A stretch of 42,333 nucleotides of DNA. It comes from Acidimicrobiia bacterium. GTDB taxonomy: Bacteria > Acidobacteriota > Vicinamibacteria > Vicinamibacterales > UBA2999. Both the position numbers and the translations under genes were made by a program. The stretch covers positions 1 through 42,333 of the forward strand of contig VFZG01000001.1 in the NCBI GenBank assembly GCA_016871275.1. The letters run 5' to 3'. Shown one piece after another: positions 1,539-4,978 of the stretch. Under the pieces are notes generated by a model. It had not been told where the DNA came from. It did not search any database and was given only the letters and a program-made list of their open reading frames with translations. Numbering within the stretch: the stretch's first letter is position 1; every line of letters begins with the position of its first letter.

Positions 1539-2930
1539 ATGATCACTCGCGTTGCGGTTGTCGCACTGACCGCGCTCGTCCTGGCGCCGCTCAGCGCGCA
1601 GCAGCCGGCCACGGTCTCGCTCATCATCAACAACGGCATCGTCATTACCGTCGACGGCAATCGACGCGTGCTCAACCCGGGCGCCATCGCCATCAACGGC
1701 AACGCGATCGTTGCCGTCGATACGCCCTCCGCGGTCGCGTCGCGTTACAAGGCCACGCAGACGATCGACGCCACCGGTCAGGTGGTGATGCCCGGCCTGA
1801 TCAACACGCATACGCACGCGGCCATGGTCCTGTTCCGGGGCCTCGGCAGCGACATGAACCTGATGGACTGGCTGAACAAGGTCATCTTCCCGGCCGAAGC
1901 CAAGACGTTGACCGCCGACTTCGTGCGCATCGGCACCGAGCTGGCACTGCTCGAGATGATCCAATCGGGCACGACCTACTTCAGCGACATGTACTACTTC
2001 ATGGATACGGTCGGCCGCGCCGCGCGCGCCGCTGGTGTCCGCGCGATGGTGGGGCAGACGGTGATCGACTTCCCGACACCCGATGCGAACACTCACGAGG
2101 AGGCCATTCAGCGAACGGTGGCGCTCGCGAAGGAGTTTGCGGGCGACGAGTTGATTACGCCGTCGATTGCGCCGCACGCGGTCTATACCGTCTCGGCGGC
2201 CCATCTCGAAAGCGTCAGCCGGACCGCCCGTCAGCTCAAGATTCCGATCCAGATTCACCTGTCGGAGACCAATGACGAGCTCAGGCAGTCTGCCGAGCAG
2301 CACCAGGCCCGGCCGGTCGCGGTTCTGGACCGCCTGAACTTCTGGGCACCGATCACCGTCGCCGCACACGGCGTCTGGGTCAACGACAGCGAGATCGCGC
2401 TCCTGAAGAGCCGCAATGTCGGCATCGCGCACAACCCCGAAAGCAACATGAAGCTGTCGAGCGGCACGGCGCCGGTGGTCAGCTATCGCAGGGCCGGCGT
2501 GAATGTCGGCATCGGCACCGACGGCGCCGCCAGCAACAACGACCTCGACATGTTCGAGGCCATGCGGCAGGCGGCCTTCCAGGCGAAACTCGTGACCGGC
2601 GACCCGACGGCGGTCAGCGCCGTTGAGGCCATCGAGATGGCCACCATCGGAGGCGCCCGGGTCGTCGGTCAGCAGGACCGCATCGGCTCACTTGAAGCGG
2701 GTAAGCGTGCCGACCTGATCATCGTCGACATGTCGCGCCCGCGTCAGACGCCGCTCTACGATCCGGTCGCGCAGGTGGTGTTCGCCACCAACGGCAACGA
2801 CGTCGTGACGACGATCGTGAACGGGACGATCCTGATGCGCGATCGCAAGGTGCTCACGATGGACGAGGGTACGGTGCTCGCCGCCGCTCGTGGCGCCGTG
2901 GCGACCGTCCGCAAGGCGATCGCGCCGTGA
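1539..2930 (+). CDS. exported amidohydrolase, MtaD/SAH-deaminase-like
   Basis: 463 residues of the metal-dependent amidohydrolase superfamily, closest in motifs to 5'-methylthioadenosine/S-adenosylhomocysteine deaminases. Metal ligands and catalytic residues are all visible: H91 and H93 (NTHTH), H213 (APHAVYT), H240 and E243 (HLSE), H277 (AHGV) and D328 (GTDG). AHNPESNMKLSSG and the C-terminal GSLEAGKRADLIIVD are also typical. Unlike the cytoplasmic family members, residues 1-20 (MITRVAVVALTALVLAPLSA) look like a Sec signal peptide, so this copy is probably periplasmic. A TACAAT hexamer lies 9 bases before the ATG and no clear Shine-Dalgarno is seen. The substrate could be another purine or a related ring; the superfamily is certain. 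Confidence 0.88.
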   Translation: MITRVAVVALTALVLAPLSAQQPATVSLIINNGIVITVDGNRRVLNPGAIAINGNAIVAVDTPSAVASRYKATQTIDATGQVVMPGLINTHTHAAMVLFRGLGSDMNLMDWLNKVIFPAEAKTLTADFVRIGTELALLEMIQSGTTYFSDMYYFMDTVGRAARAAGVRAMVGQTVIDFPTPDANTHEEAIQRTVALAKEFAGDELITPSIAPHAVYTVSAAHLESVSRTARQLKIPIQIHLSETNDELRQSAEQHQARPVAVLDRLNFWAPITVAAHGVWVNDSEIALLKSRNVGIAHNPESNMKLSSGTAPVVSYRRAGVNVGIGTDGAASNNDLDMFEAMRQAAFQAKLVTGDPTAVSAVEAIEMATIGGARVVGQQDRIGSLEAGKRADLIIVDMSRPRQTPLYDPVAQVVFATNGNDVVTTIVNGTILMRDRKVLTMDEGTVLAAARGAVATVRKAIAP

Positions 2931-2935
2931 GATGT

Positions 2936-3457
2936 TCACAGGATGCCGATATACGGCACGTTGCGGTACTGCTCGGCGTAGTCGAGTCCGTAACCCACCA
3001 CGAACTTGTCCTCGATCGTGAAGCCGATGTAGTCCACCTTCACGTCAATCTTGCGGCGGCTCGGTTTGCTGAGCAGGCACGCCGTGCGCAGTGTCCGCGG
3101 CCCGCGCGCCTGGAGTATTTCCTGCAGGTAGTGCAGGGTCAGGCCGGTATCGACGATGTCCTCGACGATGATGACGTCGCGGCCTTCGATGCTGGCGTCG
3201 AGGTCCTTGGTCAGCCGGACTTCGCCGGACGAGCTGGTCGCCGCGCCGTAGCTCGAGCAGGCCATGAAATCAATGCTGACCGGCCCCTCGGTGGCGCGTA
3301 TCAGGTCGCCGAGAAACAGGAAGGCGCCCTTGAGGACGCAGATGAAATGCAGTTGACCACTGGGCAGGTCGGAGCGGATTTCCTGGGCGAGTGCCGCGAT
3401 GCGGGCGGTCAGCTCGTCCTGGCCGATCAGGACAGTGGGAGTGGCGGTCGTTGTCAC
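2936..3457 (-). CDS. hpt: hypoxanthine phosphoribosyltransferase
   Basis: Makes IMP or GMP from hypoxanthine or guanine with PRPP. The PRPP motif VIIVEDIVDTGLT spans about residues 95-107. DFMACSSYG (about 63-71) and the C-terminal VGYGLDYAEQYRN are the other conserved blocks. The frame stays open upstream to 3670, but that would run through the divergent RpiB-like gene. A GTG at 3457 gives MTTTATPTVLIGQDEL and 173 residues, the normal family length, and is chosen here. The stop falls 5 bases from the stop of the convergent amidohydrolase gene. Its start is only 25 bases from the divergent start at 3483. Confidence 0.95.
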   Translation of the reverse strand: MTTTATPTVLIGQDELTARIAALAQEIRSDLPSGQLHFICVLKGAFLFLGDLIRATEGPVSIDFMACSSYGAATSSSGEVRLTKDLDASIEGRDVIIVEDIVDTGLTLHYLQEILQARGPRTLRTACLLSKPSRRKIDVKVDYIGFTIEDKFVVGYGLDYAEQYRNVPYIGIL

Positions 3458-3482: not shown

Positions 3483-4112
3483 ATGAAATCGTTCGACATC
3501 ATCACTGAGGCGGATGCCCGGAATCTCGAAATCGGGTCCAGCGTGACGCTGAGGGCCGGCGGGCACGTCACACCGCTTGCTGCTGACACGCTGAAGGCGC
3601 GGCGCATCACCGTCCTGGGCGGCGTGACCGACGCCAGTCTCGATGGCCTGGCGCCGGTCGCCGACGTCAAGTCGATTGCGATTGGCAGCGATCATTCCGG
3701 CGTGGCGTTGAAGGCCGGGTTGCGCGACCATCTGCGCCAGCGTGGATTGAGCGTGCTTGACGTCGGCACCGACGGCAGCGACCCGGTGGACTATCCGGAT
3801 ATTGCGGCTCAACTCGGCCGGCTGGTGGCGCGACGGGAAGTGGATGCCGCGATTGTCATTGACGGCGCCGGGATTGGATCGGCCATCGCCGCCAACAAGA
3901 TCGACGGCGTGCGTGCGGCGATGTGCACGGACAAGACCATTGCCCGGTATTCTCGTGAACACAATGGCGCCAACGTGCTGACGCTTGGCGCCACGCTGCT
4001 GTCGGTGGAGGATGCCACGGCGATCGTCGAGACATGGCTGGCGACGCCGATGGGCGAGGCGCGCTACCTTCGCCGGCTGGCGAAGATTCACGCCCTGGAG
4101 AAGATGCCGTGA
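3483..4112 (+). CDS. RpiB/LacAB-family sugar-phosphate isomerase with EutT/EutQ-like N-terminal domain
   Basis: 209 residues in two parts. Residues about 63-209 are an RpiB/LacA/LacB fold: [36 protein letters not shown] and [13 protein letters not shown]. Canonical RpiB has a catalytic Cys in CGTGIG; here that block is DGAGIG, so Cys is replaced by Asp (D127) and Thr by Ala. Residues 1-46 ([23 protein letters not shown]) resemble the N-terminal domain of EutT/EutQ and related microcompartment enzymes. The gene overlaps the DeoC start (GTGA), so the two are coupled. RpiB and DeoC are the signature enzymes of sugar-phosphate-type bacterial microcompartments. I infer an enzyme derived from or destined for such a compartment; the reaction is uncertain because of the lost Cys. 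Confidence 0.8.
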
Positions 4113-4978
4113 CCGATTATCGACGGGTCATCGAACTGATCCTCGAAGAGCTGGCGCGGGCCGGCGCCGTGGCGCCACAACGGTGCAGCTGCCACGGCTT
4201 CACGTTTGACTGCTGTCCCGATCGCGTGAGGCACGTCATCGACGCCGGCGCCACGCGCCTCGGCCTGCACGCCTCGGAGGGCGGCGCCAGCGGCGTGTCG
4301 GGGTATATCGATCACACGCTGCTGAAGCCCGACGCCACCGCCAGGGACATCGAACGACTCTGCACGGAAGCGGCGGAGTGGAAGTTCGCGACGGTGTGCA
4401 TCAACCCGACGTGGGTGGCGCTGGCCGCCAGGCTGCTGCGCGGTACGCCGGTGGGCGTGTGCACCGTGGTGGGATTCCCGCTGGGCGCCAACACGCCTGA
4501 TGTGAAGCAGTTCGAGGCACGGCGGTCGATGTTCGACGGCGCATCCGAGATTGACATGGTGATCAATGTCGGCGCCCTGAAGTCGGGCGATGTTCGCCTG
4601 GTGACCGACGACATTCGCGGCGTGGTGTCGGCCTGCCACGCCGCCGGAGCCGGCAGCAAGGTAATCATCGAGACCGCGCTGTTGACGGACGAAGAGAAGA
4701 TCACGGCCTGCACGCTGTCCAAGGCGGCCGGCGCCGACTTCGTGAAAACCTCCACCGGCTTCGGCCCTGGCGGTGCCACGGTGGCCGACATTGCCCTGAT
4801 GCGGCGGGTGGTCGGGGACGACATGGGCGTGAAGGCCAGCGGCGGCGTCCGCGACCTCGAACAAACCAAGGCCATGATTGCGGCCGGCGCCAGCCGCATT
4901 GGCGCCAGTGCCGGCGTGCGCATCGTCAAGGAATCACGCGGCGAAGCGCCGCCGGCTGTCAGGGCCGGCGGCTACTGA
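4109..4978 (+). CDS. deoC: deoxyribose-phosphate aldolase with N-terminal extension
   Basis: Class I aldolase cleaving 2-deoxyribose 5-phosphate to glyceraldehyde 3-phosphate and acetaldehyde. Catalytic residues are present: D149 ([10 protein letters not shown]), the Schiff-base K213 ([12 protein letters not shown]) and K242 (VKASGGV). The catalytic domain begins near residue 64 ([11 protein letters not shown]). Before it are about 60 extra residues: an amphipathic helix ([16 protein letters not shown]), then a Cys-rich stretch [14 protein letters not shown] (C26, C28, C35, C36). The helix looks like a microcompartment encapsulation peptide. The GTG start at 4109 overlaps the preceding TGA and gives 289 residues; starts further upstream would lie inside the RpiB-like gene. 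No shell protein gene is present in the window. Confidence 0.93.

Follow-up and report, generated by a model that had tools for sequence, protein, structure and literature searches.

An RpiB-like protein with aspartate at the place of the catalytic cysteine suggests that an odd isomerase helps a protein-shelled organelle to use the sugar of DNA

2-Deoxyribose 5-phosphate (dR5P), the substrate of deoxyribose-phosphate aldolase (DeoC), carries no oxygen on C2 and, without this hydroxyl group, cannot become a ketose. What, then, is the function of an isomerase that is encoded next to DeoC? The combination of RpiB and DeoC is the published signature of sugar-phosphate utilisation (SPU) microcompartments (PMC4207490, PMC8217296), one of the most prevalent microcompartment types, with over 280 loci from 26 phyla (PMC8217296). 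As far as its accessible text goes, the SPU literature does not explain why an isomerase should accompany an aldolase that acts on a sugar unfit for isomerisation (PMC8217296). The two genes are also adjacent in the window, that is the whole stretch of 42,333 nucleotides analysed here, and the RpiB-like protein has aspartate in place of the catalytic cysteine. Since dR5P cannot be converted to a ketose, we propose that the protein opens the ring of dR5P for the adjacent DeoC and that it is docked as cargo to a microcompartment shell. This is the reading we favour, although we give it somewhat less than an even chance. It suggests that an odd isomerase helps a protein-shelled organelle to use the sugar of DNA. 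The genes and domains of the locus are:

1539..2930, plus strand: amidohydrolase of the nucleoside (MTA/SAH/5'-deoxyadenosine) deaminase kind (PF01979, E 3.2e-75; NF005557, E 3.1e-108, under its cut-off)
2936..3457, minus strand: hypoxanthine phosphoribosyltransferase (HPRT), divergent neighbour (TIGR01203, E 1e-63; start assumed)
3483..3620, plus strand: tether-like domain of the EutT/EutQ type, residues 1-46 of the RpiB-like protein (profile matches, AlphaFold, likeness to the C terminus of a microcompartment aldehyde dehydrogenase)
3633..3659, plus strand: linker, residues 51-59 (AlphaFold pLDDT <50)
3675..4088, plus strand: RpiB/LacAB domain, residues 65-202 (PF02502, E 4.5e-46; model similar to E. 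coli RpiB 1nn4, Foldseek E 1.8e-14)
4109..4978, plus strand: DeoC (TIGR00126, E 9.1e-87; GTG start assumed; 4-base overlap with the stop of the RpiB-like gene)
4109..4300, plus strand: N-terminal extension of DeoC, by eye a short helix-like stretch ([14 protein letters not shown]) and a Cys motif, CSCH..DCCPDR

The ORF at 3483-4112 of the plus strand starts with ATG and encodes 209 amino acids. The Pfam family LacAB_rpiB covers residues 65-202 with 138 of 138 model positions, and the NCBIfam models NF004051 and TIGR00689 place the protein in the RpiB/LacA/LacB subfamily; the rpiB equivalog TIGR01120 is narrowly missed (137.1 bits versus a cut-off of 138.65). LacA, LacB and D-erythrulose-4-phosphate isomerase were rejected as identities, their models scoring far under the cut-offs. 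The original prediction had described an RpiB-like enzyme with an additional domain at the front, and the structure predicted by AlphaFold has just this layout, with a compact small domain at residues 1-46 and an RpiB fold that matches 1nn4.

Aspartate had also been predicted at the place of the catalytic cysteine, and the alignment of the active site agrees. In the isomerase block the protein has [15 protein letters not shown]. Of five solved RpiBs compared, four have CGTG here, and the mutant 3k7p has Ala at the Cys place. The codons concerned are:

3861..3863, plus strand: Asp127, place of the catalytic Cys (sequence, alignment)
3867..3869, plus strand: Ala129, place of the proton-shuttling Thr/Ser (alignment)
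3960..3962, plus strand: His160, the ring-opening His (EcRpiB His99; alignment)
4062..4076, plus strand: Arg194-Tyr195-..-Arg198, two phosphate Args retained, second ring-opening His replaced by Tyr (alignment)

Where an RpiB has Cys with a Thr/Ser partner, or a base of the Glu75 type, this protein has Asp127, Ala129 and Ser133. Among 210 RpiB-family ORFs aligned, the residue at the Cys place is Asp in 130, Cys in 69 and Gly in 11. Because the same place holds Asp in 130 of 210 ORFs, the Asp is, on the sequences compared, no chance substitution but a class-wide feature with a second, linked change. The 11 Gly rows are, by their motif, presumably RpiBs of the M. tuberculosis type (PMC3755991). 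Together with the references, the alignment has 213 rows, of which 132 are Asp (LacA and a second copy of the window's protein added to the 130 locus ORFs), 70 Cys (69 plus LacB) and 11 Gly. Position 129 is Ala in 123 of the 132 Asp rows and Thr/Ser in 3 (absent in 129), whereas Thr/Ser is the rule among the Cys rows (69 of 70) and is present in each of the 11 Gly rows. At position 133, Asp rows have Ser with a single exception (131/132) and every Gly row has Glu. An Arg at position 171, common in Cys rows (65/70) and present in all 11 Gly rows, is retained by only 20 of the 132 Asp rows. Invariant throughout the 132 Asp rows are His160, Arg194, Arg198, K139 and G130, followed by D70 (131/132) and Asn161 (127/132). 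Position 195 is His in 106 Asp rows and Tyr in 26, the window's protein being among the latter.

In RPIB of T. cruzi, Cys69 serves isomerisation, His102 and His138 serve ring opening and Arg113, Arg137 and Arg141 the phosphate (PMC4882579). Thr67 of LacB contacts O1 and O2, and the T67A variant is about 20-fold slower (PMC3755991). Measured against these enzymes by its residues, the Asp class is without the isomerisation base and the O2-contacting residue, and it keeps the counterpart of His102 and two of the arginines. In the mechanism that we propose, Asp127 would take the proton of O1 and His160 would protonate the ring oxygen, whereupon the furanose opens; His160, Asn161 and the two phosphate arginines would have been kept for this step and the isomerisation pair lost. 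A precedent for enzymatic ring opening is KdgF, which acts on unsaturated glucuronate (PMC12838403). Several points speak against ring opening: the second ring-opening His (TcRPIB His138) has as its counterpart the Tyr mentioned above in 26 of 132 Asp rows, the window's protein included, the counterpart of the phosphate-contacting Arg113, position 171, is mostly gone, and dR5P may open spontaneously at a rate that makes an enzyme unnecessary.

The main rival is a carboxylate-base isomerase. Asp127 would then replace Cys as base, and inside the same compartment the protein would convert an aldose phosphate (ribose 5-phosphate or another) to its ketose and back, so that RNA sugars would be handled as well. 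We regard this as possible but doubtful. The fold and most of the active-site residues are retained, and in M. tuberculosis RpiB the base is Glu75, so that a carboxylate is usable as isomerase base within the family (PMC3755991), in line with the Glu at 133 of all 11 Gly rows; moreover, the accessible text of the SPU literature calls the protein an RpiB type that isomerises ribose 5-phosphate (PMC8217296). However, the Gly rows have kept the Thr/Ser at 129 that nearly all Asp rows have lost, and Arg171 is rare in the Asp rows. The genome search also revealed a second RpiB in the window's genome, which is of the Cys type, for ribose 5-phosphate, and the substrate of the partner aldolase has no hydroxyl group on C2. 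The original prediction had gone from the exchange of Cys to an altered chemistry. The additional loss of the Thr/Ser partner and the pairing with DeoC, whose substrate cannot be isomerised, strengthen this view, but a carboxylate base is possible and altered chemistry is, therefore, what we infer from the residues.

The class is not confined to the phylum of the window. This phylum is probably Acidobacteriota, given that the two named sequences nearest to the protein in an alignment headed by it belong to Acidobacteria and that the locus fits the ACI microcompartment type discussed below. A search of the phylum with the 3483-4112 protein, which is unbiased toward Asp, covered 297 genomes with matches in 259; 131 RpiB-family ORFs, mostly best-scoring matches, comprised 79 with Asp, 47 with Cys and 5 with Gly. 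A contig scan gave 80 further loci (Asp 51, Cys 22, Gly 6), one of its two patterns containing DGAGIGS and thus favouring Asp rows. Here, the Asp rows were, by record titles, from Chloroflexi, Planctomycetota, Calditrichia, Neomarinimicrobiota, Acidimicrobiia, Spirochaetales, Bacteroidetes, Lentisphaerae, Woeseiaceae and others. In a quick tree calculated with the motif columns excluded, the Asp label needs four changes with LacA/LacB and two without. A tree that forces the 130 Asp rows into one clade beats the free tree by 26.7 log units (p-AU 0.67); a single origin is compatible with the trees and is not rejected. Since one origin fits, the counts for the class are not independent events, and the link to DeoC described below may be one event that was retained.

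The DeoC of the window is the only one detected in the genome. It has lysines in KTSTG (from 213) and KASGG (from 242) and an aspartate in DMV (149), which we take to be the catalytic residues known from E. coli DERA. The count was restricted to rows with flanks of 1 kb or more on either side (10 Asp and 28 Cys/Gly rows with shorter flanks were dropped). Of the 120 Asp rows that remained, 106 have DeoC within 1 kb, versus 0 of 52 Cys/Gly rows. The two proteins are even fused in 20 of 130 Asp rows, 11 from the phylum set and 9 from the contig set. On the other side are the 14 of 120 Asp rows without DeoC within 1 kb and the shell loci L174 and L208, which have an Asp-type gene and no DeoC found; these exceptions argue against a ring opener that works for DeoC. 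L174 also has Thr at 129. In L048, L057, L058, L070, L071 and L074 an Asp-type gene is present with no DeoC in the 11 kb examined; an HPRT-like gene is near in L048, L057 and L058 and an aminotransferase-like gene in L048 and L058. The N-terminal extensions of DeoC in the window and its near relatives have the motif CxCH..CCPDR between a short helix-like stretch and the aldolase, and a simple CP pattern is seen in 40 of 92 unfused DeoCs. HPRT is found in 48 of 130 Asp-type loci (flanks unequal), some of them from outside the taxonomic order of the window. This neighbourhood is consistent with a breakdown of deoxynucleosides, which would yield dR5P as the shared substrate of the Asp-class protein and DeoC.

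Fusion to DeoC could also mean that the protein is catalytically dead and that its RpiB fold now serves only to arrange DeoC or the compartment core. Both the catalytic Cys and its partner residue are lost, after all, and LacA, which likewise has Asp at this place, works together with the Cys-bearing LacB (PMC3755991). We consider this unlikely, because the conservation of His160, R194, R198, K139 and G130 in every Asp row, and of D70 in all but one, exceeds what a scaffold needs.

How would the proposed ring opener reach a shell? AlphaFold predicts for residues 1-46 the order strand-helix-strand-helix-strand, with block means of 91-97 up to residue 40 and 77 for residues 41-50. No Pfam or NCBIfam model matches residues 1-60 at E 0.1, and a profile of 20 rows found nothing significant among the PDB sequences (best E 0.38). 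A profile built from 86 rows was then searched against 15 E. coli proteins, with E-values scaled to 4300 proteins. EutT ranked first of the 15, matching with its first ~45 residues (E 2.9e-6 for the whole protein, 6.1e-6 for the best stretch), and EutQ second, with a weak match of its first ~45 residues (3-45; E 0.035, best stretch 0.34); none of 2000 shuffled EutT or EutQ N-termini attained the score of the real one. The predicted resemblance of the front 46 residues to EutT and EutQ was thus recovered, and the relationship suggested by the profiles is clear for EutT and weak for EutQ. The Pfam matches of EutQ and EutT begin only at residues 85 and 95. In EutQ of Salmonella, deletions led the authors to assign shell contact to H1/H2 (within residues 9-41) and cargo contact to H3/H4 (PMC12487888). 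By analogy to these first helices of EutQ, residues 1-46 would dock the RpiB-like protein to the shell; the weakness of the EutQ match speaks against this part of the proposal.

The domain profile matches 85 of the 130 Asp rows and none of the 80 other rows. The remaining 45 Asp rows have, by eye, a short helix resembling an encapsulation peptide, a fusion to DeoC, or neither. The exchange to Asp had been presented as a trait of this protein together with its front domain; it is present, but it marks the whole class, including these 45 members without the domain. Stand-alone proteins of ~106-110 amino acids with a weak match to the tether domain are encoded in or near shell loci (L174:3500-3820, E 0.016; L165:13327-13659, E 0.0017). 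They are possibly EutQ-like adaptors without an enzyme.

None of the BMC-H and BMC-P genes recovered by genome-wide searches lies in the window. The shell genes detected are BMC-H at C1:166835, C11:7676 and C15:67227 and three BMC-P in a row on C15, the BMC-H and BMC-P genes of C15 being at C15:67227-68327. C1 is the contig of the window, and its BMC-H gene is ~163 kb away from the RpiB-like gene and followed by an aldehyde dehydrogenase (AldDH). A class II aldolase lies beside the BMC-H/BMC-P genes on C15, a contig that ends 1.2 kb past the last BMC-P. Across genomes, BMC-H was found in 77 of 79 with an Asp row versus 8 of 33 in which only Cys/Gly rows were read. This comparison was chosen because, of the 27 among 52 Cys/Gly rows that come with BMC-H in the genome, 19 are from genomes that also carry an Asp row. 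Of the 130 Asp rows, 48 have BMC-H/BMC-P genes within the examined locus, as against none of the 80 other rows (flanks unequal). The two exceptions to BMC-H, G056 and G079, belong to one genus and have an Asp-type RpiB with DeoC and the altered motif DGLGIAS (L062, L076); this is either an assembly gap or a shell-free version.

A further link to the shell comes from AldDH. The 30 best-scoring AldDH loci from 60 genomes of the order gave 29 C-termini, one locus being without a full frame, and in 29 of 29, the window's own genome included, the domain of the RpiB N terminus was recognised by eye. A profile-profile comparison of the two gave E 9.3e-11 and a score of 49.4, versus at most 18.3 in 200 column shuffles. 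AldDH (E <=8e-135) is present in 45 of the 60 genomes, and an RpiB match that starts at residues 1-4 (E <=1.7e-58) in 38 of these 45 versus 1 of the 15 without AldDH. Seen from the other side, 39 genomes have the N-domain RpiB, and 38 of these have AldDH; of the 21 genomes that lack it, 7 have AldDH. Residue 127 and the AldDH C terminus were read in those of the 60 genomes whose loci were fetched. Fisher's exact test gives p 9e-8 with kinship ignored, and six of the seven genomes with AldDH only belong to one family. The microcompartment link that had been predicted for this type of protein is borne out by the co-occurrence with shell genes and by the domain shared with AldDH. We infer that RpiB and AldDH, although encoded far apart, probably dock to the same shell. 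The seven genomes with AldDH and no tethered RpiB argue against joint docking.

What kind of shell might this be? The ACI microcompartment of Acidobacteria has its AldDH in a satellite locus and is listed among the types without an obvious aldehyde-forming enzyme, and a class II aldolase was noted as a hint of carbohydrate use (PMC8217296, accessible text). Of the ACI genes, the genome of the window has class II aldolase, BMC-H and three BMC-P together and AldDH in a satellite; a hydroxyacid dehydrogenase is a further gene of ACI loci, and C15 breaks off 1.2 kb past its last BMC-P. By gene content, the shell set resembles the ACI type, to which we assign it as putative. In such a compartment, the open aldehyde of dR5P would be cleaved by DeoC to acetaldehyde and glyceraldehyde 3-phosphate inside the shell, and the tethered AldDH would convert acetaldehyde to acetyl-CoA. 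Against the reading that we favour, no PTAC of the PduL type was found in the search of the genome.

The class II aldolase next to the BMC-H/BMC-P genes brings up another substrate. The protein could isomerise a different deoxy sugar phosphate, e.g. one derived from 5'-deoxyadenosine, and the aldolase of the ACI locus would make the aldehyde. A deaminase-like amidohydrolase is close by in the window, and salvage of 5-deoxyribose by phosphorylation, isomerisation and aldol cleavage is known (PMC6079011). The usual partner is DeoC, however, and only 21 of the 130 Asp-type loci, with flanks of differing length, have the amidohydrolase, an enzyme that may be secreted; this substrate is therefore quite improbable. 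By eye, the amidohydrolase has an apparent signal peptide, which is odd in an enzyme of nucleoside salvage. That we are dealing with an ordinary RpiB with a harmless substitution and no compartment link, as the distance to the shell genes and the assignment to the RpiB/LacAB subfamily by the NCBI models might suggest, is scarcely credible in view of an Asp that is retained class-wide with a second linked change, the domain in common with AldDH and the co-occurrence with shells.

It is tempting to extend the proposed ring opening of dR5P to the entire class. Asp-type RpiBs would then be a new class of dR5P ring openers (mutarotases) that feed DeoC in microcompartments of many phyla and, in the order of the window, would together with DeoC be the missing aldehyde-forming cargo of ACI, docked by a shared tether domain for which Pfam has no model. 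This generalisation is speculative and we would not call it likely. In the open-access PMC literature, subscription papers and supplements aside, the accessible text contains no report of an Asp-type microcompartment RpiB, of its activity or of the N-terminal domain on an RpiB. As far as literature searches reach, the Asp class with the linked change of Thr/Ser to Ala, the tether domain on RpiB and the shell-less satellite of a putative ACI compartment are apparently new. The fixed change of two active-site residues makes the question of the SPU isomerase testable by one enzyme assay. In addition, the DeoC of the window is a candidate for the enzyme that forms the aldehyde in the orphan ACI compartment. 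The domain, found on two different enzymes and at either terminus, is possibly a portable tag for docking to shells.

Compared to known systems, the protein has the fold of canonical RpiB from E. coli and C. thermocellum and its His160, Asn161, R194, R198, D70/H71 and Tyr104, but it has Asp for Cys, Ala for Thr and Ser at 133, and Arg171 is not kept. The absence of Cys is shared with RpiB of the M. tuberculosis type; there, however, the combination is Gly, Glu133 and Ser/Thr129, versus Asp, Ser133 and Ala129 in the window. LacA (galactose-6-phosphate isomerase) also has Asp at the Cys place (IDAYGAG), but it works with LacB, which supplies Cys and Thr, and its very long branch makes its place in the tree unsure. 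The N-terminal domain is alignable to EutT/EutQ over ~40 residues, and the stretch in EutQ contacts the shell (PMC12487888, accessible text); in those proteins the domain is carried by a cobalamin adenosyltransferase or a cupin, not by an isomerase. Like SPU loci, the window has a PF02502 protein next to a DeoC-type aldolase (PF01791), the two being fused in some loci, and Asp-type genes do occur in such shell loci. Unlike there, the pair in the window lies apart from the detected shell genes, and in their accessible text the SPU papers treat the protein as a plain RpiB, with no mention of the Asp or the N-terminal domain (PMC4207490, PMC8217296). With ACI, finally, the genome shares a contig that carries a class II aldolase together with BMC-H and three BMC-P, and also an AldDH beside a BMC-H elsewhere; the difference is the DeoC of the window, which we propose as the aldehyde-forming enzyme.
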